Assembly (NCBI RefSeq): GCF_002162355.1
Contig: NZ_CP021434.1
Coordinates: 2,580,501 to 2,644,500 of the forward strand
Reading direction: 5' to 3'
DNA length: 64,000 bases
Source: Tumebacillus avium
Lineage (GTDB): Bacteria > Bacillota > Bacilli > Tumebacillales > Tumebacillaceae
In this document: in pieces, positions 44,110 through 58,594 of the stretch
How positions within the stretch are numbered: the first letter of the stretch is position 1
Layout: each line of letters begins with the position of its first letter
Made by a program: the position numbers and the translations under genes
The notes under the pieces: generated by a model
What the model saw: only the letters and a program-made list of their open reading frames with translations
Told to the model about the DNA's origin: nothing
The model's database searches: none

Positions 44110-45432
44110 ATGCCAAAAGGCTCGGAATACGAAAGGATGAACAGCCCGATGAACCAGTTTCAAACCCGTGAGGAACGCGGCATCTACGTTCACGTACTGC
44201 CCACCGACAAGTTCCGCATGAACACGATCGTCGCCACTTTTGCGCAGGAGCTGCGCGAAGACACCGCGACGCCATTGGCTTTGCTTCCCTATCTTTTAAA
44301 CCGAGGGTCTGAGCAGTACCCGACCCCGGAGAAACTGCAACTCGCGCTCGACGAACTGTACGGCGCCTCGATGTCGGCCACGATCGACAAAAAAGGGGAG
44401 CGCCAGGTCGTCGACTTCTCGATGAACGTCCCGAACGAGAAATTCCTCAAACAAGGCGAAGGCCTGTTCCAAAAGGCGCTCGGCATTCTCTCCGACGTGA
44501 TGCTCCGCCCGCAGCTGCAGGACGGCGCTTTTCTGCCCGAGTATGTGCAGGCAGAAAAAGAACAGCACAAAAAGCGCATCGCAGCGGTGATCGACGACAA
44601 GATGAACTATGCGGTCGAGCGCTGCAACGAAGAGATGACCAAAGGCGAACCGTATGCCATCCCGCGTCTCGGCTTCGAAAACAAGATCGACGAGATTACT
44701 CCTCAGTCGCTGTTTGACGTGTACCAGCGCCTGCTGAAGACCGCGCCGATCAACATCTATGTGGTCGGCGACGTGGACACCGATGCGGTGGCAGCGGAGA
44801 TCTTCCGCGTCTTTGACATGGAGCGCGACCCGCAAGCCGCGTTTGCCCCGGTGCAGATTCAGCATGAGACCCGCGCCGTCAAAGATGTGGTCGACCGCCT
44901 CGACATCAATCAAGGGAAGCTGAACGTCGGCGTGTGGACCAATGTGGCCTGGGCGTCTGACGACTATGCGGCGATGCAGGTCTGTAACGGCGTGCTTGGC
45001 GCGTTCCCGCATTCCAAACTGTTCGTCAACGTCCGCGAGAAGCACTCGCTGGCTTACTACTGCATGTCCCGCCTCGACGGGCACAAAGGCATCATCAGCG
45101 TCTTTTCCGGTGTGGAATTTGACAAGATCGATCAGGCGCTGGAGATCATCCGCGAGCAGTTTGACGTGCTCAAAAAAGGCGAGATCACCGCAGAGGAGAT
45201 GGAGTTCACGATCGCAGGTCTGGTCAACGCCTACAAGACGGCGATGGACAATCCGACGTCGATCGCCGATTTCCACCTGAACGGCCTGCTCGCCGGGCGC
45301 GTCCGCACGCGCGAAGAAATGATCGACGCCTTCCAAAAGGTCACCGTCGAAGATGTCGTGCGCGTGGCGCAAGGCCTGCAGTTTGATACGATCTACACGC
45401 TTCGCAATGAGGAGGGGAACCACGGTGCGTGA
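44110..45432 (+). CDS. ymfF: M16-family protein YmfF (YfmF), non-catalytic partner
   Basis: Up to 440 residues. M16 insulinase fold (YVHVLPTDKFRMNTI, LLNRGSEQYPTPEKLQLALDELYGA) but the zinc motif HxxEH is absent, as in the family's regulatory subunit. It pairs with YmfH, encoded 8 nt overlapping downstream. The pair is annotated as associated with EF-P aminopentanol modification in Bacillus; such split M16 pairs (AlbE/AlbF) also process RiPP peptides. The ATG at 44110 has AGGAAG at 6 nt; ATG 44137 and 44149 are alternatives. Confidence 0.85.
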   Translation: MPKGSEYERMNSPMNQFQTREERGIYVHVLPTDKFRMNTIVATFAQELREDTATPLALLPYLLNRGSEQYPTPEKLQLALDELYGASMSATIDKKGERQVVDFSMNVPNEKFLKQGEGLFQKALGILSDVMLRPQLQDGAFLPEYVQAEKEQHKKRIAAVIDDKMNYAVERCNEEMTKGEPYAIPRLGFENKIDEITPQSLFDVYQRLLKTAPINIYVVGDVDTDAVAAEIFRVFDMERDPQAAFAPVQIQHETRAVKDVVDRLDINQGKLNVGVWTNVAWASDDYAAMQVCNGVLGAFPHSKLFVNVREKHSLAYYCMSRLDGHKGIISVFSGVEFDKIDQALEIIREQFDVLKKGEITAEEMEFTIAGLVNAYKTAMDNPTSIADFHLNGLLAGRVRTREEMIDAFQKVTVEDVVRVAQGLQFDTIYTLRNEEGNHGA

Positions 45433-46708
45433 AATTCGCAATGAGCAGCTGAAATTATCCGCTTTTCACGATCAACTCGACAACGGACTCGACGTATACG
45501 TGATTCCGCGGGAAGGATTCAAGCAGACGTACGCGCTGTTCTCCACCAAGTACGGCTCGATCGACCGCGAGTTTGTCGTGCCCGGCGAGTCGGAACCGAC
45601 CATCGTGCCGGACGGCATCGCGCACTTTTTGGAGCACAAGATGTTTGAGCAGGAGAACGGGGAGGACGTGTTCAAGACGTTTGCCCGCTATGGCGCGATG
45701 TCGAACGCTTTTACGTCGTTTGACACGACGGCCTACCTGTTCTCGTCGACCGACAATCTGGACGAGAACCTGACCACGCTGCTGAATTATGTGCAGGAGC
45801 CGTATTTTACGGACGAAAACGTGGAAAAAGAAAAAGGGATCATCGAGCAGGAGATCCGCATGTACGATGACGACCCGAACTGGCGCGTCTATTTCAACCT
45901 GATCGAAGGCATGTACCAAGTGCATCCGATCGCGATCGACATCGCCGGCACGGTGGAGACGATCCAGCAGATCGACAAAGAGACGTTGTACAAGTGCTAC
46001 AATACGTTCTACCACCCGAGCAACATGTCGGTCGTCGTGGTTGGCGACTGCGACCCGGCGCGCGTGCATGCGCTGATCCGTGAAAACCAGGCCGGCAAAA
46101 GCTTCGAACGCCAGCCGGAGATCGAGCGTATCTTCCCGAACGAGCCGACCGAGGTGCGCCGTGCCCGTCATGAAGAGCGCATGCAGATCTCGATGCCGAA
46201 GCTGCAGTTCGGCTACAAGGACATGAGCCGTCCGAACGGCAAGGACATGATCATCAACGAGTACGCGACTTCGGTCGGCCTCGAAGCGTTGATCGGGAAA
46301 AGTTCTGCCCTGTTCAACAAAATGTACGAGGCAGGCATCGTCGACAAGCGTTTTGGCTGGTCGTATGACGCGACTCCGCGTTTTGCCCACTCGCTGTTTG
46401 GCGGCAACTCCAAAGATCCGGACCGCGTGCTGCAGGTGGTCGAGGAAGCGTTTGCCGAAGCGGCGCAAAACGGCATCCCGGAGGCAGACTTCAACCGGGC
46501 GCGCAACAAGATGATCGGCCAGATGGTCTCGACGCTCGATTCGGCGCGCGCCATCGCCCGCTATTTCGCGACCTACACGTTCCGCGATGCCGATTTCTTT
46601 GACATCATCGGCGTGATGGAAAGCCTGACCCTGGAGCAAGTCAACCAGCGTTTGCGCGAACATTTGGCGCCGGAGATGCGCACCGTGTCGATCGTGCTGC
46701 CGAAATAA
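45425..46708 (+). CDS. ymfH: M16-family zinc peptidase YmfH (YfmH)
   Basis: 427 residues. The zinc motif HxxEH is intact as HFLEHKMFE near residue 67, with downstream Glu in EKEKGIIEQEI. GTG start overlaps the ymfF stop; SD GGAGGGG. It should form a heterodimer with YmfF. Closed by its own terminator 95 bp before the MFS gene, so co-regulation with the peptide locus is not shown. Confidence 0.88.
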   Translation: MREIRNEQLKLSAFHDQLDNGLDVYVIPREGFKQTYALFSTKYGSIDREFVVPGESEPTIVPDGIAHFLEHKMFEQENGEDVFKTFARYGAMSNAFTSFDTTAYLFSSTDNLDENLTTLLNYVQEPYFTDENVEKEKGIIEQEIRMYDDDPNWRVYFNLIEGMYQVHPIAIDIAGTVETIQQIDKETLYKCYNTFYHPSNMSVVVVGDCDPARVHALIRENQAGKSFERQPEIERIFPNEPTEVRRARHEERMQISMPKLQFGYKDMSRPNGKDMIINEYATSVGLEALIGKSSALFNKMYEAGIVDKRFGWSYDATPRFAHSLFGGNSKDPDRVLQVVEEAFAEAAQNGIPEADFNRARNKMIGQMVSTLDSARAIARYFATYTFRDADFFDIIGVMESLTLEQVNQRLREHLAPEMRTVSIVLPK

Positions 46709-46803: not shown

Positions 46804-48048
46804 GTGAACGAGCCATCCTTGTTTCGCAATCGCAATTTCACGCTGCTCTATGTCGGGCAACTCGTCTCGCTGTTTGGAGACTGGTTCCGCGGCGTTGTGA
46901 TGATCGTCATCCTCTATGATCTGCATCCGGCCGCTTCGACCGTTGGCGGGATGTTTATCGCTACGATTCTGCCGACCTTGTTTGGCAGCATCTTTGTGGG
47001 TCCGTTTGTCGACCGCTGGAACAAAAAGAACATCATGATCTGGACCAACCTGCTGCGCTTCGTGCTGACGCTGGCCATGGTGTACGGGGTCTATCTGCAG
47101 AACATCTGGGTGCTTTACGGGCTGATCGTTGTCTCCAGTCTCGTCTCTGCGGCCTTCCAACCGGCGCGTACCGCTGTAATTCCGGAGATCGTCGAAGAGA
47201 AGCAGATCGTAAAAGCAACCTCGTCCTTCGCGATTTTGAACTCGGTGACGATGGTCGTGGCCAGCGCCTTGGGCGGGTTTGTCGCCGACTGGGCAGGTCC
47301 GTATCCGATCATGCTGTTTGATGCTTTCTCCTATCTGTTCTCCGCGATCTGCATCGTGCTGATGAAGTATCAGCCGCAGCAAAAGGAGGTCAAGGAGCGT
47401 CCGCCGTACTGGAAGCAGGTGCGGGAGGGCTACGATTATGTTCTCGCCACGCCGCAGCTGGTCGCCGTCTTTTGGATCACCGCCGCCCGCGACTTCGTGC
47501 TTGGCTATGTCTACATCCTGTTTGCGGTCTTCATCCTCGAAGTGGTGCAGACGGGCAATACGGGGATGGGCATCGGCTATTCAACGACAGCAGTTGCGTA
47601 TCTGATCGGAGCCTGGCTGATCAAGTGGTATTTCAAACAGAAGCCGTTTGATGAAAGCGCCTTTTTCAAAATTTTCCTGCCCTGCCACATCATCTACGGG
47701 GTGGGCCTGGGCGTGATGTTCTCGATGACAGGCTGGTATTGGTTCCTCGTCGCGCTTGTCGTGACCTACATCTTCTCGCAAGGCGTAAACATCATCGCCG
47801 AAACCTCGCTGATGACCTACTCGCGCGTGGACAACCGCGGCCGGGTCGTCGCTTCCTGGCTGACCGCTTCACGCCTCGCCTACGCGATCTCCTTGCCGCT
47901 GTTCTCGGTGATCGGCGGGTACATTCCGATCCATGTCGGCGGTTACATTCTGACGGCCGTCTGCGTGATCTCTGCGCTCTGCGTGTATCCGTGGCTGAAA
48001 ACCGCGCTGGGCACTCAAGTGAAAGAAAAATCGACATTGCAAGCGTAA
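46804..48048 (+). CDS. MFS exporter, cassette A
   Basis: 414 residues, twelve membrane segments. NFTLLYVGQLVSLFGDWFR opens the first helix and FVDRWNKKNIMIW is the conserved loop after helix 2, as in MFS macrolide/peptide efflux-type exporters. It is a clear paralogue of the MFS gene at 51752 (shared GPFVDRWNKK, ALGGF, AETSLMTYSR/TETSLMTYSK). GTG start behind AAAGGAG; own terminator downstream. Location at the head of a Trp-peptide/radical SAM locus suggests peptide export or self-protection. Confidence 0.88.
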   Translation: MNEPSLFRNRNFTLLYVGQLVSLFGDWFRGVVMIVILYDLHPAASTVGGMFIATILPTLFGSIFVGPFVDRWNKKNIMIWTNLLRFVLTLAMVYGVYLQNIWVLYGLIVVSSLVSAAFQPARTAVIPEIVEEKQIVKATSSFAILNSVTMVVASALGGFVADWAGPYPIMLFDAFSYLFSAICIVLMKYQPQQKEVKERPPYWKQVREGYDYVLATPQLVAVFWITAARDFVLGYVYILFAVFILEVVQTGNTGMGIGYSTTAVAYLIGAWLIKWYFKQKPFDESAFFKIFLPCHIIYGVGLGVMFSMTGWYWFLVALVVTYIFSQGVNIIAETSLMTYSRVDNRGRVVASWLTASRLAYAISLPLFSVIGGYIPIHVGGYILTAVCVISALCVYPWLKTALGTQVKEKSTLQA

Positions 48049-48080
48049 AGAACCCTTGGCTACTAAGGGTTCTTCTTTTT
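48048..48080 (+). terminator. terminator after MFS A
   Basis: AAGAACCCTT-ggctact-AAGGGTTCTT then TTTTTT; separates the exporter from the peptide gene. Confidence 0.9.
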
Positions 48081-48128: not shown

Positions 48129-48157
48129 TTGAAAAGGGAAATTACTAGAAATATAAT
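48129..48157 (+). promoter_or_regulatory. promoter of repeat peptide gene
   Basis: -35 TTGAAA (48129-48134), exactly 17 bp, -10 TATAAT (48152-48157). A near-consensus SigA promoter dedicated to the small peptide gene. Confidence 0.85.
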
Positions 48158-48202: not shown

Positions 48203-48310
48203 ATGGAAAAGAACTCCTGGATCATCAATGTGGAGAAAAACTCTTGGATCATCAACGAGCGCAACTGGATCGTTGTTCAAGAGCGCAACTGGATCATTGT
48301 TGCAGTTTAA
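48203..48310 (+). CDS. 35-residue four-repeat Trp peptide (candidate RiPP precursor)
   Basis: A 35-codon ORF with SD GGAGGTG and a near-consensus promoter. It is four tandem units, MEKNSWIIN, VEKNSWIIN, ERNWIVVQ and ERNWIIVAV, each with one Trp followed by Ile-Ile/Val. No separate leader is seen. A terminator-like hairpin follows, then the radical SAM gene. The same Trp-Ile-Val signature recurs in three micro-ORFs before the second radical SAM gene. I infer a multi-core substrate for the HemN-like enzyme; a translational-attenuation leader is the main alternative. No known family is recognised. Confidence 0.8.
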   Translation: MEKNSWIINVEKNSWIINERNWIVVQERNWIIVAV

Positions 48311-48437: not shown

Positions 48438-49802
48438 ATGTCCAATCACGGAACCAAAGAATTGCCGTTTTCCAGCCTGCCGAAGATGTGGGTCTATCTG
48501 TACCCGTATCTCTCGCGCGGCGAACTGACGGTTGAACATGTGCACCAGTTTTTGCAGCAGGCAGCACCCAACCGTGGCAAGAAGACGTTGTACATGCACG
48601 TGCCGTTCTGTGACACGATCTGCACGTTCTGCCCGTTTGTCCGCTCGACCAACTACGCGGATAAGCTGCAGCCGTACGTGGACGCGCTGGTCAAAGAACT
48701 CAAGACGATCGCAGCCACTCCGCGCATGCAAGGCGTTGCGCTCGACGCGATCTTTGTTGGCGGCGGCACGCCGTCGGTGCTTTCGCCGCAGCAGATTCAC
48801 CTGATCGGCGAGACGATCCACAGCAACTTCAAGCTGAAAGAAGACTATGAGTGGACGTTTGAAGTCGAAGCGAAAAGCGCGACGGAAGACAAGCTGAAAG
48901 CGATGCATGAGGTCGGCGTGAACCGGATGTCGTTTGGCGTTCAGACGTTCAACCCGAAATTCCGCAAGATGTTCAACCTGACCGCATCGCACGATGAGAT
49001 CAAGCGCACCCGCGAACTGGCCGGGAAGTACTTCAAAGGTTTCAACATGGACCTCCTGTACCAGTTGCCGGGCCAGACGATGGAAGAGATCGTGCAGGAT
49101 CTGCAACACGCGGTCGAACTGAACACGACCTCGATCGACGCCTATCCGCTCGATTACACGATCACTTCGAAAGGCTTCCTGCAGTCGATCAAAAACGAGC
49201 GCCTGCCGAAACCGCCGAATGCGTACGAAAAAGTGGCGCAGCAGGAACTGGTCACCAACTTCCTCGTCGAGCATGGCTACAGCCAAGAGTTTATCTACAC
49301 CTTCATCCGCCAAGATGCGGAGCACAGACGTTTCGTCTTTGGCGAAACCTTGTACGGCCACTATGAAGACGAGTGCATCGGCGCAGGGCTCTCCGCGTTC
49401 TCGTACCAGGCCGGCATGGTCTACCGCAACTTCGATACGGTGGAAGAATACATCCGCGCCGTCGATGCAAATGGGCTGGCTGCCGACATCGTCAACGAGT
49501 ACCACGCGAAAGAGAAAGGCCTGATCTACTTCCCGAAACGGATGTCGATCGACACCGACGACATCGATCGTCAGGAGCTCGATGTGCGTTTCTACCAGCT
49601 GCTCGATGAGTTTGAAGCAAAAGGGCTGATCGTGCGTGAAGGCAACAAGCTCAAGCTGACCCGTGAAGGCCAGCCGTGGTACATGAACATGATGATCGAA
49701 ATGCTGCCGGAGCGCACGCGCAACCTGCACGAGACGATCTCCTCCCGACTGAACGAACGGGCGGACTTCACGTTTGACGATGAACTGATCGTCTTCAACT
49801 AA
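48438..49802 (+). CDS. HemN-like radical SAM enzyme, cassette A
   Basis: 454 residues from the ATG behind GGAGG (in-frame ATG 48390 precedes the SD). The 4Fe-4S motif CxxxCxxC is C58-DTI-C62-TF-C65 in HVPFCDTICTFCPF. HemN/HemW-family segments GGGTPSVLSP, GVNRMSFGVQTFNP and NMDLLYQLPGQT follow, then a C-terminal HemN-like domain of about 140 residues. HemN-type class C enzymes include coproporphyrinogen oxidases and methyl or cyclopropane transferases. No heme genes are nearby; the adjacent Trp peptide suggests peptide modification. Confidence 0.88.
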   Translation: MSNHGTKELPFSSLPKMWVYLYPYLSRGELTVEHVHQFLQQAAPNRGKKTLYMHVPFCDTICTFCPFVRSTNYADKLQPYVDALVKELKTIAATPRMQGVALDAIFVGGGTPSVLSPQQIHLIGETIHSNFKLKEDYEWTFEVEAKSATEDKLKAMHEVGVNRMSFGVQTFNPKFRKMFNLTASHDEIKRTRELAGKYFKGFNMDLLYQLPGQTMEEIVQDLQHAVELNTTSIDAYPLDYTITSKGFLQSIKNERLPKPPNAYEKVAQQELVTNFLVEHGYSQEFIYTFIRQDAEHRRFVFGETLYGHYEDECIGAGLSAFSYQAGMVYRNFDTVEEYIRAVDANGLAADIVNEYHAKEKGLIYFPKRMSIDTDDIDRQELDVRFYQLLDEFEAKGLIVREGNKLKLTREGQPWYMNMMIEMLPERTRNLHETISSRLNERADFTFDDELIVFN

Positions 49803-49814
49803 AAACTTTCAACC

Positions 49815-49843
49815 AACCGGACTGAATACAGTCCGGTTTTTTT
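49815..49843 (+). terminator. terminator after radical SAM A
   Basis: AACCGGACT-gaatac-AGTCCGGTT then TTTTT. Confidence 0.92.
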
Positions 49844-49975
49844 AATGTCCGATTACAACAAGCATTTCAAAGGACAAAACAAAATGATTTTCAGTTAATC
49901 ATTGAAATCACGTGTAATAATTTGTTTTACCCTTAAATATCTATATACCGTAAGCAAGACGAGGAGGTGTGCGGC
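49844..49975 (+). promoter_or_regulatory. AT-rich region before micro-ORF cluster
   Basis: 132 bp with no ORF. It holds an imperfect inverted repeat TGATTTTCA/TTGAAATCA (49885-49910) and AT-rich hexamers (TATATA 49942), so the cluster B promoter and a regulator site probably lie here. No hexamer pair with ideal spacing is found. Confidence 0.45.
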
Positions 49976-50008
49976 GTGAAACAATGGATCATCATCGCGG
50001 CTGAGTAG
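49976..50008 (+). CDS. micro-ORF B1, Trp peptide of 10 residues
   Basis: GTG start 8 nt after GAGGAGGTG, an ideal SD. It encodes (M)KQWIIIAAE, then TAG. The Trp-Ile-Ile-Ile core matches the units of the 35-residue peptide at 48203. Too short for gene finders. Candidate leaderless precursor of the radical SAM enzyme at 50300. Confidence 0.6.
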   Translation: MKQWIIIAAE

Positions 50009-50059
50009 TCCGGTCTTATGTATCGTTTGGAAGGAAAACGCTTGCGAGAGGGGGTGCCA

Positions 50060-50116
50060 ATGATGCAAAAATGGCTGCCGGTTGTGGAGTGGATTTCCGT
50101 TGTAGTTGTTGAGTAG
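50060..50116 (+). CDS. micro-ORF B2, Trp peptide of 18 residues
   Basis: ATG behind GAGAGGGGGTG encodes MMQKWLPVVEWISVVVVE, two Trp units in one ORF (QKWLPVV and EWISVVVV). An in-frame ATG at 50018 would add MYRLEGKRLREGVP, a possible short leader, but has a weak SD. Same signature and setting as B1 and B3. Confidence 0.6.
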   Translation: MMQKWLPVVEWISVVVVE

Positions 50117-50183
50117 TTACTGGTGTGGATTGCTCCGACAAGGTTTTTGCTGCGCCACAGGTACTCGGAGAGGGGGCGGAACC

Positions 50184-50213
50184 ATGCGCGAGTGGATCGT
50201 AGTAGCTGCTTAA
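50184..50213 (+). CDS. micro-ORF B3, Trp peptide of 9 residues
   Basis: ATG 7 nt after AGAGGGGG encodes MREWIVVAA, then TAA. It is the shortest of the set and nearly equals the last unit of the 35-residue peptide (ERNWIIVAV). Followed by a hairpin and the radical SAM gene. Confidence 0.6.
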   Translation: MREWIVVAA

Positions 50214-50241: not shown

Positions 50242-50269
50242 GGCTGACAGGGGGCGACCTCTGTCAGCC
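50242..50269 (+). terminator. hairpin between micro-ORFs and radical SAM B
   Basis: Perfect 9-bp stem GGCTGACAG / CTGTCAGCC with a 10-base loop and no T tract. It may be an attenuator or an mRNA-stability/processing hairpin, in the same position as the hairpin in cassette A. Confidence 0.6.
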
Positions 50270-50299: not shown

Positions 50300-51661
50300 A
50301 TGTCGCAGCACAACGCATTGCCCTACAAAAAGCTGCCTAACATGTGGAACTATCTCTACCCGTTCATTCAAGATGGGCCAGAACCGGTGGAGACCGTTCG
50401 TCAATTTTTGAACTCGACGCGCACGCCGCTGCCCGGAACGAAATCGCTGTATGTGCACATTCCGTTCTGTGACACGATCTGCACGTTCTGTCCGTTCATC
50501 CGCTCGACGAACTACCAAGACAAACTGCAGCCCTACGTGGATGCGCTGCTGAAAGAGTTGAAAGCCATCGCCAGCACGCCGTATGTCAAGCAGATGAAGC
50601 TTGATGCAGTCTATGTCGGCGGCGGCACGCCTTCCGTTTTGTCTCCGAAGATGATCGAAGACCTCTGCACGACGATCCGCGAGAATTTCAATCTCAAGGA
50701 TGGAGTCGAGTGGAGCTTCGAAGTCGAAGCGAAGAGCGCTTCCGAAGACAAGCTGAAAGCGATGGCGGCGAACGGTGTCAACCGGATCTCCTTCGGTGTG
50801 CAGACGTTTAACCCGTACTACCGCAAGCTGTTTAACCTGACCGCATCGCTCGACGAGATCAAGCAGACCCGCGACCTCGCCGACAAGTACTTCAAAGCGT
50901 ACAACATGGACCTCCTGTACCAACTGCCTGGCCAGACGATCGAGCAGTTGCATGAGGACCTGGAGAACGTGCGTCAACTGTCCACCACCACCGTTGACGT
51001 CTATCCGCTGGAGTACCTCGTCACCTCCAAAGGCTTCCTGAACATGATCAAAGACGGCAAAGTACCGGAGCCGCCGAAAGCGGACGACAAAGTGCTGCAG
51101 CACCAATTCGTCAACTCCTACCTGCTCAACCACGGGTACGAGCAGACGCACATCTACACCTTCGCCAAAGGCGATGCCAAGTACAAAGACTTCAAATTCG
51201 GCGCGACCATCTACGGCCGTTACGAAGACGAGTACATCGGCTGCGGCCAGGCGGCTGCTTCCTACCTGAGTGGCATGTCGCACATGAACGTCGTGAAGAC
51301 CGACGAGTACATCCGCGCGGTCGAAAACGGCACTTTGCCGGTCATGCGCGCGCAAGAGTACGAGGCGAAAGAAAAAGGCCTGATCTACTTCGCGAAACAC
51401 ATGAAAGTCAGCCTCGAGTACCTGCGTCAGCACAACCTGCCGTCCGAGTACTGGGAGAAGATCGAGAAGCACGAAAAAATGGGTCTGGTCGTGCAGGAAG
51501 ACGGCTTGCTCAAGCTGACCGAGCTCGGCAAGATCTGGTACATGCACGTCATGATCGACCTGCTGCCGGAACAGCAGAAGAAGACGTACGACACCTACGT
51601 CGAAGTGCTGCAGAAAGACAAAGATTTCATTGAAGACACCGAGCTTACTGTCATTCAATAA
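50300..51661 (+). CDS. HemN-like radical SAM enzyme, cassette B
   Basis: 453 residues, a close paralogue of the enzyme at 48438 and colinear with it from MSQHNALPYKKLPNMW on. 4Fe-4S cysteines are C57, C61 and C64 in HIPFCDTICTFCPF; GGGTPSVLSP, GVNRISFGVQTFNP and NMDLLYQLPGQT are shared. SD AAAGGGGGT. It follows three Trp micro-ORFs and precedes an MFS exporter. The two enzymes likely act on the related peptide sets; reaction unknown (methylation, cyclopropanation, oxidation or cross-linking at Trp are options). Confidence 0.88.
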   Translation: MSQHNALPYKKLPNMWNYLYPFIQDGPEPVETVRQFLNSTRTPLPGTKSLYVHIPFCDTICTFCPFIRSTNYQDKLQPYVDALLKELKAIASTPYVKQMKLDAVYVGGGTPSVLSPKMIEDLCTTIRENFNLKDGVEWSFEVEAKSASEDKLKAMAANGVNRISFGVQTFNPYYRKLFNLTASLDEIKQTRDLADKYFKAYNMDLLYQLPGQTIEQLHEDLENVRQLSTTTVDVYPLEYLVTSKGFLNMIKDGKVPEPPKADDKVLQHQFVNSYLLNHGYEQTHIYTFAKGDAKYKDFKFGATIYGRYEDEYIGCGQAAASYLSGMSHMNVVKTDEYIRAVENGTLPVMRAQEYEAKEKGLIYFAKHMKVSLEYLRQHNLPSEYWEKIEKHEKMGLVVQEDGLLKLTELGKIWYMHVMIDLLPEQQKKTYDTYVEVLQKDKDFIEDTELTVIQ

Positions 51662-51751: not shown

Positions 51752-53011
51752 ATGTCCACAGCAACAACGGAGAAATTGCCGTCTCCGTTTAAAAACCGCA
51801 ATTTTACATTGCTTTATTACGGTCAGATGATCTCGCTGTTTGGCGATTGGTTTAAAACGATCGCCCTGATCTCCGTCATTTATGCGATTGTGCCCAATGC
51901 GGCATCGATCGGCGGCCTGTTTATCGCCAGCGTCCTGCCGGTGCTGTTCGGCGGCATCGTCATGGGTCCGTTCGTCGACCGCTGGAACAAAAAGCACCTG
52001 ATGATCTGGGTGGACATCCTGCGCGTGTTCTCGACGCTTGGGATCATCGCAGGCGTGATGCTTGCGAACATCTGGGTGATCTATGTCTGCATCGCGTTTG
52101 GCGCGTTTGCTTCGGCTGCGTTTGCGCCGGCGAGAACGTCGATGATCCCGGAGATTTTGAAAGAGAAAAACCTGATCGCGGCGACCTCGTCGTTTGCGCT
52201 GCTCACTTCGACCACGATGGTGCTGGCGAGCGCCTTGGGCGGCTTTTTGGCCCAGTGGATCGGGGCGGTGAACATTCTGTATTTCGATGCGTTCTCCTAT
52301 GTGGTGTCGGCAGTGTTTATCGGGCTGATGAAGTATCAGCCGTTGGAGAAGCCGGTGAACAAGCGTCCGCCTTATCTGCAGCAGGTGAAAGAGGGCATCG
52401 ATTTCGTGAAAAAATGCCCGCAGCTGGTCGGCGTGTTCTGGCTGCAATTCTTCCGCGACTTCTGCCTCGGCTTCATCTACATCCTGTTCCCGCTGTATGT
52501 GCTCAATGAGCTGAAGGCAGGAGATGCCGGCGTCGGCATCGGGTATTCGGTGACGGCGGTGGCGTATATCATCGGCGCGTTTTTGCTGAAGCAGTACTTT
52601 AAGAAGCGCAAGTTTGATGACAGCTCGTACTTCAAGATCTACTTCCCGGCCAATATGTTGTACGGGATCGGGCTTGGCTGCATGTTTATCATCCACAACT
52701 GGTATTTGTTCTTTGCGGTGATGCTGCTCGCGAACATCTTCCAGTCCAAGGTCAACGTGATCACGGAGACCTCGCTGATGACCTACTCCAAGCCGGAACT
52801 GCGCGGCCGCGTCGTGGCGACCTGGCTGTCGATGTCCCGTCTGGCCTACGGAATCTCGCTCCCGCTGTTCTCGGCGATCGGCGGATTCATCCCCAGCGCC
52901 ATCGGCGGCTGGATGCTGGCCGCGATCTGCGTAGTGTCGGCAGCCGTGCTGATGCTGTGGCTGAAAGGGAAGCTGCAGAGCGGTCAGGTGGCGGAAGAGC
53001 AGGCGGTGTAA
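51752..53011 (+). CDS. MFS exporter, cassette B
   Basis: 419 residues, twelve membrane segments, paralogous to the exporter at 46804 (FVDRWNKKHLMIW, ITETSLMTYSKPELRGRVVATW). It opens NFTLLYYGQMISLFGDWFK. ATG behind AAGGGGGG. The locus therefore has two exporters flanking two radical SAM enzymes, all on one strand. Substrate unknown; export of the modified Trp peptides is the simplest inference. Confidence 0.88.
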   Translation: MSTATTEKLPSPFKNRNFTLLYYGQMISLFGDWFKTIALISVIYAIVPNAASIGGLFIASVLPVLFGGIVMGPFVDRWNKKHLMIWVDILRVFSTLGIIAGVMLANIWVIYVCIAFGAFASAAFAPARTSMIPEILKEKNLIAATSSFALLTSTTMVLASALGGFLAQWIGAVNILYFDAFSYVVSAVFIGLMKYQPLEKPVNKRPPYLQQVKEGIDFVKKCPQLVGVFWLQFFRDFCLGFIYILFPLYVLNELKAGDAGVGIGYSVTAVAYIIGAFLLKQYFKKRKFDDSSYFKIYFPANMLYGIGLGCMFIIHNWYLFFAVMLLANIFQSKVNVITETSLMTYSKPELRGRVVATWLSMSRLAYGISLPLFSAIGGFIPSAIGGWMLAAICVVSAAVLMLWLKGKLQSGQVAEEQAV

Positions 53012-55088: not shown

Positions 55089-58000
55089 GTCACATTGAAA
55101 GACCCGAGTAGAAGGGGACTGAAAGGTGGAAGCCGCTCACCGCCATGAAGCTGAACGTTTGGCGTCACATTGAAAGACCCGAGTAGAAGGGGACTGAAAG
55201 TGCATGAGAAATTAATTCCGCTACAATCTAGCCATAGTCACATTGAAAGACCCGAGTAGAAGGGGACTGAAAGTGATTACGATGAGGTGGTGGGCAGACA
55301 GAGCAATTGCGTCACATTGAAAGACCCGAGTAGAAGGGGACTGAAAGCTCGACCACCTCGAAGATCTTGTCGTCTACGCCGCTCGGTCACATTGAAAGAC
55401 CCGAGTAGAAGGGGACTGAAAGATACAGTTCTGAGACCATCACAAGCAATGCTTGATAAGTCACATTGAAAGACCCGAGTAGAAGGGGACTGAAAGTTCC
55501 ATTTGCAAAAATCTTGCGCTGGGTCAGCATTTACGTCACATTGAAAGACCCGAGTAGAAGGGGACTGAAAGTTTATTTATTCCAGAATGGCTTTTTCTTG
55601 TAACGTATCGTCACATTGAAAGACCCGAGTAGAAGGGGACTGAAAGCTGACGATCAACGGCTTGGCCGTCGCTACGGATGTACGTCACATTGAAAGACCC
55701 GAGTAGAAGGGGACTGAAAGGGATAGTCTTCGTGCCGTACGTACCGGACGCGGAGTCGTCACATTGAAAGACCCGAGTAGAAGGGGACTGAAAGTGCTCG
55801 GGCCCTTCTCGATTGATTCCGGAATCGGAAGTCACATTGAAAGACCCGAGTAGAAGGGGACTGAAAGTTGAGCTGTTCATAAGCACCGGCGAGATTGTTG
55901 TTCAGTCACATTGAAAGACCCGAGTAGAAGGGGACTGAAAGTTGGGCGTAGACTTCCGCCACTCGCACGCGTTGCCTCGTCACATTGAAAGACCCGAGTA
56001 GAAGGGGACTGAAAGCAAGGATGCCGAAGTAGTACATGCCTTTCACCTCATTGGTCACATTGAAAGACCCGAGTAGAAGGGGACTGAAAGTGCTATATCA
56101 AGGTTTTCTAGGTGGTGCATAATCGTTGTCACATTGAAAGACCCGAGTAGAAGGGGACTGAAAGGGCATTCAGGACTTCTGCGAAGTTGGACAGATAATG
56201 GTCACATTGAAAGACCCGAGTAGAAGGGGACTGAAAGTTTGGGAGCCGCACAAGTGGCACGTACTCCCTCCTTGAGTCACATTGAAAGACCCGAGTAGAA
56301 GGGGACTGAAAGATAAGGCAAAGGTTTTCGGTGAAATCGCTTTGGAAGAAGTCACATTGAAAGACCCGAGTAGAAGGGGACTGAAAGCGCACAAGACGGA
56401 ATTTATCGAGGACAATCCGGGACGTCACATTGAAAGACCCGAGTAGAAGGGGACTGAAAGTTGATCGGTATCGTTGCTTGTTCTTGCAAGAGCTGAAGTC
56501 ACATTGAAAGACCCGAGTAGAAGGGGACTGAAAGGAAAAAGCCCAACGCTCCGGGATGCGATCGGAAATCGTCACATTGAAAGACCCGAGTAGAAGGGGA
56601 CTGAAAGTCGGGGTGGTAGTGATCTACAACATATGCTTTGTGCGGGTCACATTGAAAGACCCGAGTAGAAGGGGACTGAAAGTCGGGGTGGTAGTGATCT
56701 ACAACATATGCTTTGTGCGGGTCACATTGAAAGACCCGAGTAGAAGGGGACTGAAAGTTTCGTCCACGTAGGGCGGAACTTCACCGTTACGAGGTCACAT
56801 TGAAAGACCCGAGTAGAAGGGGACTGAAAGACATCGGGCCCATCGCAGCAAGCGGGCCAAGAAAGTCGTCACATTGAGAGACCCGAGTAGAAGGGGACTG
56901 AAAGAGTTCGATGCCATTTCCGTTAAGGAATCGGTTACGAGTCACATTGAGAGACCCGAGTAGAAGGGGACTGAAAGATTTGAAAAGCATAAGAAGCAGA
57001 ATCAAGAGAAGAAGGTCACATTGAGAGACCCGAGTAGAAGGGGACTGAAAGTTGAGATCACCTGCAGGGATCTCCTTACGATGACCCAAGTCACATTGAG
57101 AGACCCGAGTAGAAGGGGACTGAAAGTTCTTGAGCGGCTCTCCACCATTGAGTCGCAGGAACAGTCACATTGAGAGACCCGAGTAGAAGGGGACTGAAAG
57201 TCGGAACCGTCCGTGTTGCGGAACAGCAGCACATAAGTCACATTGAGAGACCCGAGTAGAAGGGGACTGAAATAGTTCTGATCAAGGAGCGCTTTGGTTT
57301 CCTCTGATTCGTCACATTGAGAGACCCGAGTAGAAGGGGACTGAAAGAGATCGCGGAGCGTGTCCGTAGTTTGGCGTGTAGCCTGCGTCACATTGAGAGA
57401 CCCGAGTAGAAGGGGACTGAAAGTCCGCGGCGACCGCAGTTGAGTACCAAGTTTCTGACGTCACATTGAGAGACCCGAGTAGAAGGGGACTGAAAGCGTT
57501 ATAGCTGTCGGCCGCCATTAACATTCCGGCGAAGTCACATTGAGAGACCCGAGTAGAAGGGGACTGAAAGCCAGATGCAGGCACTGCACCTTCTCCGCCT
57601 CTTTGACGTCACATTGAGAGACCCGCGTAGAAGGGGACTGAAAGATCATGACCAATTTGCATCGGTACTTGCGCAATTCGAGTCACATTGAGAGACCCGA
57701 GTAGAAGGGGACTGAAAGAGGTACTGGTCGAGCTCTTTCCAGACAAACGGCAGCGGTCACATTGAGAGACCCGAGTAGAAGGGGACTGAAAGGGTTGAAG
57801 ATCTCCGCGATCCGGGCGACCGGTTCGTAGTCACATTGAGAGACCCGAGTAGAAGGGGACTGAAAGGAAACTTCAGCCCAATCAGCCTAACATCTCTACA
57901 CATGTCACATTGAGAGACCCGAGTAGAAGGGGACTGAAAGAGCAAAATAAAAAGGCGATAGAATCATACTTCGATTGTCACATTGAGAGACTCGAGTAGA

Positions 58001-58440: not shown

Positions 58441-58490
58441 GAAGTAGACCTCCTTGGCCGGGAAGCTCAAGGGAGGTCTACTTCTTTTTT
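58441..58490 (+). terminator. plus-strand terminator overlapping toxin 3' end
   Basis: 13-bp stem GAAGTAGACCTCC / GGAGGTCTACTTC then TTTTTT. It would end a plus-strand RNA antisense to the toxin mRNA tail, as in type I antitoxin RNAs such as RatA. Confidence 0.75.
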
Positions 58491-58594
58491 AGTAGGTTAA
58501 GTATGGCGATGACCACAGACAGCACACCGAATATGACCGCAGCAATTAGTGAGCCAAATCCAATCATCACAGTGAGCCATTGGTAATCCGTCAT
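58478..58594 (-). CDS. Hol-Tox-like type I toxin, 38 residues
   Basis: MTDYQWLTVMIGFGSLIAAV then a second hydrophobic run and NLLKKK at the end; 38 residues with one membrane helix and a basic tail, matching the pattern of the putative holin-like toxin family (TxpA/BsrG-like; FGSLI motif). SD AAGGGGGTGA precedes the ATG. Too short for gene finders. Convergent terminators on both strands suggest an antisense antitoxin overlapping the 3' end. It sits between the two CRISPR arrays. Confidence 0.78.
   Translation of the reverse strand: MTDYQWLTVMIGFGSLIAAVIFGVLSVVIAILNLLKKK

Follow-up and report, generated by a model that had tools for sequence, protein, structure and literature searches.

Biarylitides derive from bytA, an unannotated 18-bp gene with a five-residue precursor that was found by searches for a ribosome-binding site and a motif (PMC13417212). 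The mccA gene of microcin C has 7 codons and encodes a leaderless precursor of 7 residues, and here the short length itself is conserved (PMC6495379). As for the enzymes that concern us below, those of class C target sp2 carbons. Among them, NosN alkylates an indole, and TbtI depends little on a leader (PMC11285071).

In this study, we examined a stretch of 64,000 nucleotides from Tumebacillus avium (hereafter the window), which contains two adjacent cassettes, A and B, with Trp-containing precursor peptides, a HemN-like radical-SAM enzyme and an MFS exporter. Most likely, three genes of only 9-18 codons in this soil bacterium give rise to tiny modified peptides of an undescribed kind, which gene-finders overlook. 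The features of the locus are as follows.

46804-48048, plus strand: MFS exporter of cassette A, MFS_1 / MFS_3 type (PF07690, E 1.4e-34; PF05977, 3.5e-20)
48048-48074: terminator-like hairpin after this exporter gene
48129-48157, plus strand: promoter-like TTGAAA-17-TATAAT upstream of precursor A (11/12 consensus positions)
48203-48310, plus strand: precursor A, a 35-aa polyprotein with four Trp units, MEKNSWIINVEKNSWIINERNWIVVQERNWIIVAV
48438-49802, plus strand: radical-SAM enzyme A, HemN-like (PF04055, 1.6e-19)
49815-49838, plus strand: terminator-like hairpin closing cassette A (10 pairs, then a T run)
49961-49967, plus strand: SD of micro-ORF 1, GAGGAGG, 8 nt upstream, kept in the congener G001
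49976-50008, plus strand: micro-ORF 1, GTG start, 10 aa, (M)KQWIIIAAE
50046-50054, plus strand: SD of micro-ORF 2, GAGAGGGGG
50060-50116, plus strand: micro-ORF 2, ATG start, 18 aa, two Trp units, MMQKWLPVVEWISVVVVE
50168-50176, plus strand: SD of micro-ORF 3, GAGAGGGGG, 7 nt upstream
50184-50213, plus strand: micro-ORF 3, ATG start, 9 aa, MREWIVVAA
50242-50269, plus strand: hairpin GGCTGACAGGGG-GCGA-CCTCTGTCAGCC at the junction of the micro-ORFs and enzyme B (z -3.1)
50300-51661, plus strand: radical-SAM enzyme B, HemN-like (PF04055, 1e-18)
51752-53011, plus strand: MFS exporter of cassette B (PF07690, 4.1e-29)

Cassette A is a sister copy of cassette B with its units fused in one ORF. The description in an earlier note on this DNA, that cassette A encodes a polyprotein and cassette B separate ORFs, was correct, and relatives alternate between both formats. 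The two enzymes share 55% identity. Precursor A is a three-unit polyprotein in G001 and a two-unit one in another relative, G002. Judged by eye, TTGAAA and TATAAT occur at the equivalent place in both genomes. Given the terminator-like hairpins after the exporter and enzyme genes of cassette A, each precursor set is probably co-transcribed with its own enzyme. No P450 was present among the typed window genes beside the cassette, and neither a self-resistance gene nor a dedicated protease was identified. The M16 peptidase pair at 44110-46708 was rejected as dedicated processing enzymes because there is one highly similar homolog per genome, located elsewhere in G003, G004, G006, G204, G240 and G363; we take the pair to be housekeeping and YmfF/YmfH-like. 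The window also holds a CRISPR array (55089-58000) of at least 39 repeats (GTCACATTGAAAGACCCGAGTAGAAGGGGACTGAAAG) with a period of ~74 nt, in which the repeat switches from GAAAGACC to GAGAGACC from ~56868 and one spacer is present in duplicate (56571/56646).

Three micro-ORFs with SDs had been claimed between 49976 and 50213, and all of them are present on the plus strand in more than chance number. Using a rule that accepted ORFs of up to 40 aa if they followed an SD and contained W[IL]x[VI], we found 3 qualifying ORFs in the 497-bp spacer; of 4000 dinucleotide shuffles, 14 contained one such ORF and none contained two or more. Across both strands of the window, the matches were the three micro-ORFs, the 35-aa precursor A and one unrelated 38-aa hydrophobic ORF. 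The latter (58478-58594, minus strand, SD-preceded, MTDYQWLTVMIGFGSLIAAVIFGVLSVVIAILNLLKKK) resembles a small holin-like or toxin-like membrane peptide. The earlier note had further regarded each micro-ORF as a single unit with its SD at 7-8 nt, which holds for the first and third but not for the second: micro-ORF 2 has two Trp units, QKWLPVV and EWISVVVV, and an SD spacing of 5-8 nt that is set by which purines pair, and an alternative start at 50063 is also possible. Its suggestion that these are among the shortest bacterial genes needs a caveat, as the precursor genes of biarylitides (5 codons) and microcin C (7 codons) are shorter. We consider it almost certain that the micro-ORFs are real, functional micro-genes, their translation itself not having been shown.

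According to the earlier note, the micro-ORFs would be refuted if close relatives had lost the SD or the reading frame, and they withstood this test. G001 retains all three in frame with their SDs, and the third is also retained in G002. Between the window and G001, identity was 91, 81 and 93% in ORF1, ORF2 and ORF3 and 87, 71 and 87% in their SD segments, compared with 54, 45 and 56% in the spacers that follow them, and indels were found in both inter-ORF spacers. Eight of the nine changed codons of ORF2 were synonymous, and the only residue changes in ORF1 and ORF3 were Ile/Val exchanges (ORF1 of G001 is MKQWIVVAAE with an ATG start; the counterpart of ORF3 is MREWIIVAA in both G001 and G002). 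The array of G002 comprises seven micro-ORFs, two of them encoding an identical peptide. G001 also carries a third-cassette remnant (L031, 11069-11410, minus strand), in which the precursor start MERNSWVIEPREV runs on in frame into the last ~90 residues of a radical-SAM enzyme.

The enzyme is rare. Close homologs occurred in only 10 of 398 Bacilli genomes, a homolog in G339 being more distant, and none was found in 398 phylum samples apart from that of the window genome itself. In the enzyme tree, the family separated from HemW controls and split into two clades, with some joins on long branches. Clade I peptides were Trp-first, whereas those of clade II were Trp-last wherever a candidate precursor was found, and in nearly all precursors, whichever the clade, Trp was constantly paired with a branched aliphatic neighbour.

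Trp-unit peptides were present at all 11 clade-I loci examined (seven Tumebacillus-family genomes retrieved with enzyme B, and the more distant homologs of G363, G204, G240 and a Cytobacillus kochii plasmid), either as separate micro-ORFs (up to seven) or as polyproteins of 2-4 units, with the motif acidic or polar residue-Trp-Ile/Leu/Val-x-Val/Ile/Leu. T. lacus (G005), the nearest named relative that was found, has four micro-ORFs after the MFS gene: MREWIVVVEN, MREWIIVVEN, MREWIVIVEN and MRKDWLVVV. G003, G004 and G006 have mainly polyproteins, for example MTREWIAVEPQWIAVELSWISVNEPTWLPVTEL, on the opposite strand and past a small gene; thus, a transcript shared with the enzyme is absent there. 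G363 has two MSNEWISVKNEWIAV beside the enzyme homolog, and the peptides of G204, G240 and the C. kochii plasmid are MRQVNEWVAL, MRQSTEWFTV and MKKEWVALKNEWVAL, respectively. One fixed rule gave 31 matches in 54 kb of family loci versus 0 in 91.5 kb of control loci (23 loci around HemN-like genes of other Bacilli). It should be noted that this rule was composed after the family peptides had been seen, so the scan is a description with a control and no blind prediction. A search for orphan micro-precursors in the same genome with a degenerate pattern gave 16 matches versus 9 for the reversed control; those outside the locus mostly lay within long ORFs or read coding sequence out of frame and were rejected. 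One 35-aa ORF (MEVPEWIRKH...) was among the matches.

In clade II, a paralog in T. lacus (L037, 4885-4587, minus strand) is accompanied by a four-unit PIIW polyprotein, MENQPIIWKNVEPIIWKNAAEPIIWNNEVAPIIW, and a 9-aa micro-ORF, MERNILIIW. ECF-type transporter genes are neighbours of this paralog. The other clade-II peptides came from plasmids: MRDIVWDIVW in Alicyclobacillus, MENAIELF...NNVAW in Glaesserella (L060, 1204-4834) and the related MESAMELF...LCMW in Xenorhabdus (L061, 5372-10711). P450 and MFS genes lie beside the enzyme gene in Glaesserella and Klebsiella, and other neighbours are speD in Glaesserella and speF in Xenorhabdus. The Klebsiella cassette (L058, 6001-11003), which is also plasmid-borne, is split by an ISL3 transposase gene, its enzyme has Lys at the position of Gln168, no precursor was found for this copy, and the cassette had no match in E. 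coli genomes. For another four clade-II enzymes (L038, L039, L040 and G339), no Trp micropeptide could be recognised as precursor. At two clade-II loci that lack one, L040 and L065, similar ORFs of unknown function lie upstream and stop directly ahead of the enzyme gene. Considering the precursor-less enzymes and the long-branch joins, the basis of the polarity rule in clade II is four cases, and Glaesserella and Xenorhabdus among these are mutually related.

With regard to the enzyme itself, the best solved relatives in a profile search were HemN (1olt, 3.6e-41) and then NocN (9p2u, 4.1e-22). HemN also ranked first in the PDB match of an AlphaFold model built from three sequences. This model was only fair (pLDDT 58): its radical-SAM half was good, its C-terminal half poor. 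Cys57, Cys61 and Cys64 of the CX3CX2C motif are invariant in the family, and the fourth Cys of HemN (CX3CX2CXC) is Phe in all members. Also invariant are Tyr51, the counterpart of HemN Tyr56 and NocN Tyr34, and Asp204, which we equate with NocN Asp196; both match two-SAM residues of HemN and NocN (PMC12871812). These residues are retained in HemW too and thus do not prove class C methylation. The HemN model TIGR00538 gave 156 bits, below its cut-off of 325, and the nearest curated family, HutW/ChuW (TIGR04107), gave 221.7 and 219.5 bits against a cut-off of 400. The HemN_C domain scored 21.3 bits in enzyme A (cut-off 24) and had no match in enzyme B. No SPASM model of Pfam or NCBIfam matched, and neither resource reported an RRE domain.

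A hairpin was found between the precursors and the next gene at 11 of the 12 loci folded, and hairpins downstream of precursors were more stable than shuffles (z < -2) at 10 of the 12. Their sequences differ between genera; the palindrome at 50242-50269 is the same in G001, in G002 and after the last T. lacus micro-ORF. We infer that the hairpin raises precursor output over enzyme output, which has not been shown. A search of Rfam gave no match.

On the basis of these results, we propose with a probability of roughly 0.7 that the micro-ORFs encode the substrate peptides of enzyme B in a putative leaderless RiPP cassette, where micro-precursors are accompanied by an MFS exporter and a radical-SAM enzyme of HemN type. 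This proposal is drawn from sequence, and translation, modification, product and activity have not been shown. The part that makes the peptides substrates of the adjacent radical-SAM enzyme, although not assayed, appears highly probable. Each micro-ORF would be translated from its own SD, and the pre-enzyme hairpin may hold peptide output above enzyme output. The enzyme would recognise the short Trp unit directly, without a leader peptide, and would act through a 5'-deoxyadenosyl radical, probably with a second SAM in the manner of class C, so that a one-carbon group might be added to the Trp indole or a bond built from it. General peptidases may then trim multi-unit forms, and the MFS protein would export the product, most likely an antagonistic or signalling peptide, this role being a guess.

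The RiPP criterion of a precursor gene beside its modifying enzyme is met at every one of the 11 clade-I loci. Recognition through a leader peptide or an RRE is absent, and the precursors of 9-35 aa consist almost wholly of core units. Leaderless RiPPs are known, so the missing leader is a variant feature rather than a reason for exclusion. Within RiPPs, the system stands out by its leaderless precursors in tandem micro-ORFs and by a HemN-like enzyme that works alone. The wider view, that near-bare-core leaderless Trp micropeptides, encoded by tandem micro-ORFs or by polyproteins that can stand in for them and modified at the indole by a two-SAM HemN-like enzyme, form a new RiPP class, with two enzyme clades that read the Trp-aliphatic motif in opposite ways and one of which also occurs on gammaproteobacterial plasmids with a P450, has odds only somewhat better than even. 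No description of the system was found in the open-access papers searched; subscription papers lay outside the search.

Several other explanations should be considered. The micro-ORFs are very short, and GAGG-type purine tracts run all along the spacer, as would be expected if they were chance ORFs of a purine-rich region; the shuffle result, the conservation and the recurrence at all clade-I loci refute this as the main explanation, and it can practically be dismissed. They might instead be regulatory leader peptides of the enzyme operon, acting for example in Trp-sensing attenuation with products that are irrelevant. Cassettes A and B do have the layout of an attenuator, with micro-ORFs directly upstream of the enzyme gene and a hairpin between, and every micro-ORF has a Trp codon. 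However, the Trp codons are single per unit and do not form runs, the micro-ORFs of T. lacus lie downstream of the exporter gene, and the precursors of G003, G004 and G006 are on the opposite strand. Neither amplification to seven copies or fusion into polyproteins of up to four units nor the conserved peptide sequence and the unit polarity that follows enzyme clade agrees with attenuation, and the lack of an Rfam match also speaks against it. We rejected it on position (downstream or opposite strand in four genomes) and copy number, and it retains very little probability.

If the micro-ORFs are genes for exported peptides, the peptides could still be unmodified, as leaderless bacteriocins or signals sent out by the MFS protein, while the enzyme acts elsewhere, for example on a tetrapyrrole like HutW/ChuW. 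This draws on the closest named model, TIGR04107, whose enzymes have a heme substrate, but the score of 221.7 bits is far under the cut-off, enzyme clade predicts the polarity of the peptide motif, and the peptides accompany the enzyme even on plasmids; we regard such a separation as improbable. A further alternative keeps the same system and changes its chemistry: the enzyme would make a C-C or C-N cross-link (Trp-Ile/Val, cyclophane-like), a cyclopropane or a dehydro residue rather than a one-carbon modification of Trp. Streptide and triceptides are precedents for radical cross-links at Trp, and the constancy of Trp with a branched aliphatic neighbour in nearly all precursors would suit it. 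On the other hand, no SPASM domain was detected in the enzymes, and HemN-like is the architecture of class C one-carbon enzymes, which makes the cross-link unlikely, if still a serious candidate. Trp is the sole residue common to all candidate precursors of both clades, and on this ground we favour, as inference only, either Trp one-carbon or radical cross-link chemistry for the leaderless RiPP cassette; the one-carbon modification in particular is a tentative assignment that falls a little short of even odds, its chemistry being inferred only.

If the proposal is true, a class of peptide natural products has been missed by annotation because its genes span only 9-18 codons; for the plasmids of C. 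kochii and Alicyclobacillus, the PLSDB gene tables viewed have no entry where the micro-ORF lies. The enzyme would then be a small leader-free Trp catalyst for short peptides, useful for peptide engineering. Arrays of 3, 4 and 7 micro-ORFs, together with polyproteins of 2-4 units, offer a natural testbed for the multiplication and fusion of micro-genes, and the search rule (SD, Trp motif and adjacent HemN-like enzyme) is reusable in genome mining.

Compared with known systems, ChuW/HutW is the top NCBIfam model by score, and the Xenorhabdus relative is annotated as ChuW/HutW; that family is tied to heme use, whereas the present one is tied to Trp micropeptides and an MFS exporter. The class C methylases NosN/NocN, TbtI and PbtM2/M3 are likewise HemN-like and act on sp2 carbons of peptide natural products (PMC11285071, PMC12871812). 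However, they tailor thiopeptides that other enzymes have already built. In the present case a bare micropeptide is the presumed substrate, and no modifying enzyme besides the HemN-like one was recognised in the clade-I cassettes of Bacillota. TvgA/TvgB, which yield poly-cyclopropylglycine, are similar in that a radical-SAM enzyme modifies short core units that are repeated (PMC9062424) but differ in enzyme subfamily (IPR023867) and in their TVGG repeats, and separate micro-ORFs have not been described for them. Microcin C relies on adenylation by MccB, with no radical chemistry and no Trp motif. The window cassette fails the biarylitide criteria of a five-residue precursor and a P450 partner, as length and motif differ; in biarylitides a P450 modifies a peptide with another motif, and tandem arrays and polyproteins are a feature of the present system. 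What the two have in common is a micro-gene of almost bare core peptide beside one modifying enzyme, and in some clade-II gammaproteobacterial cassettes a P450 gene adjoins the radical-SAM gene.
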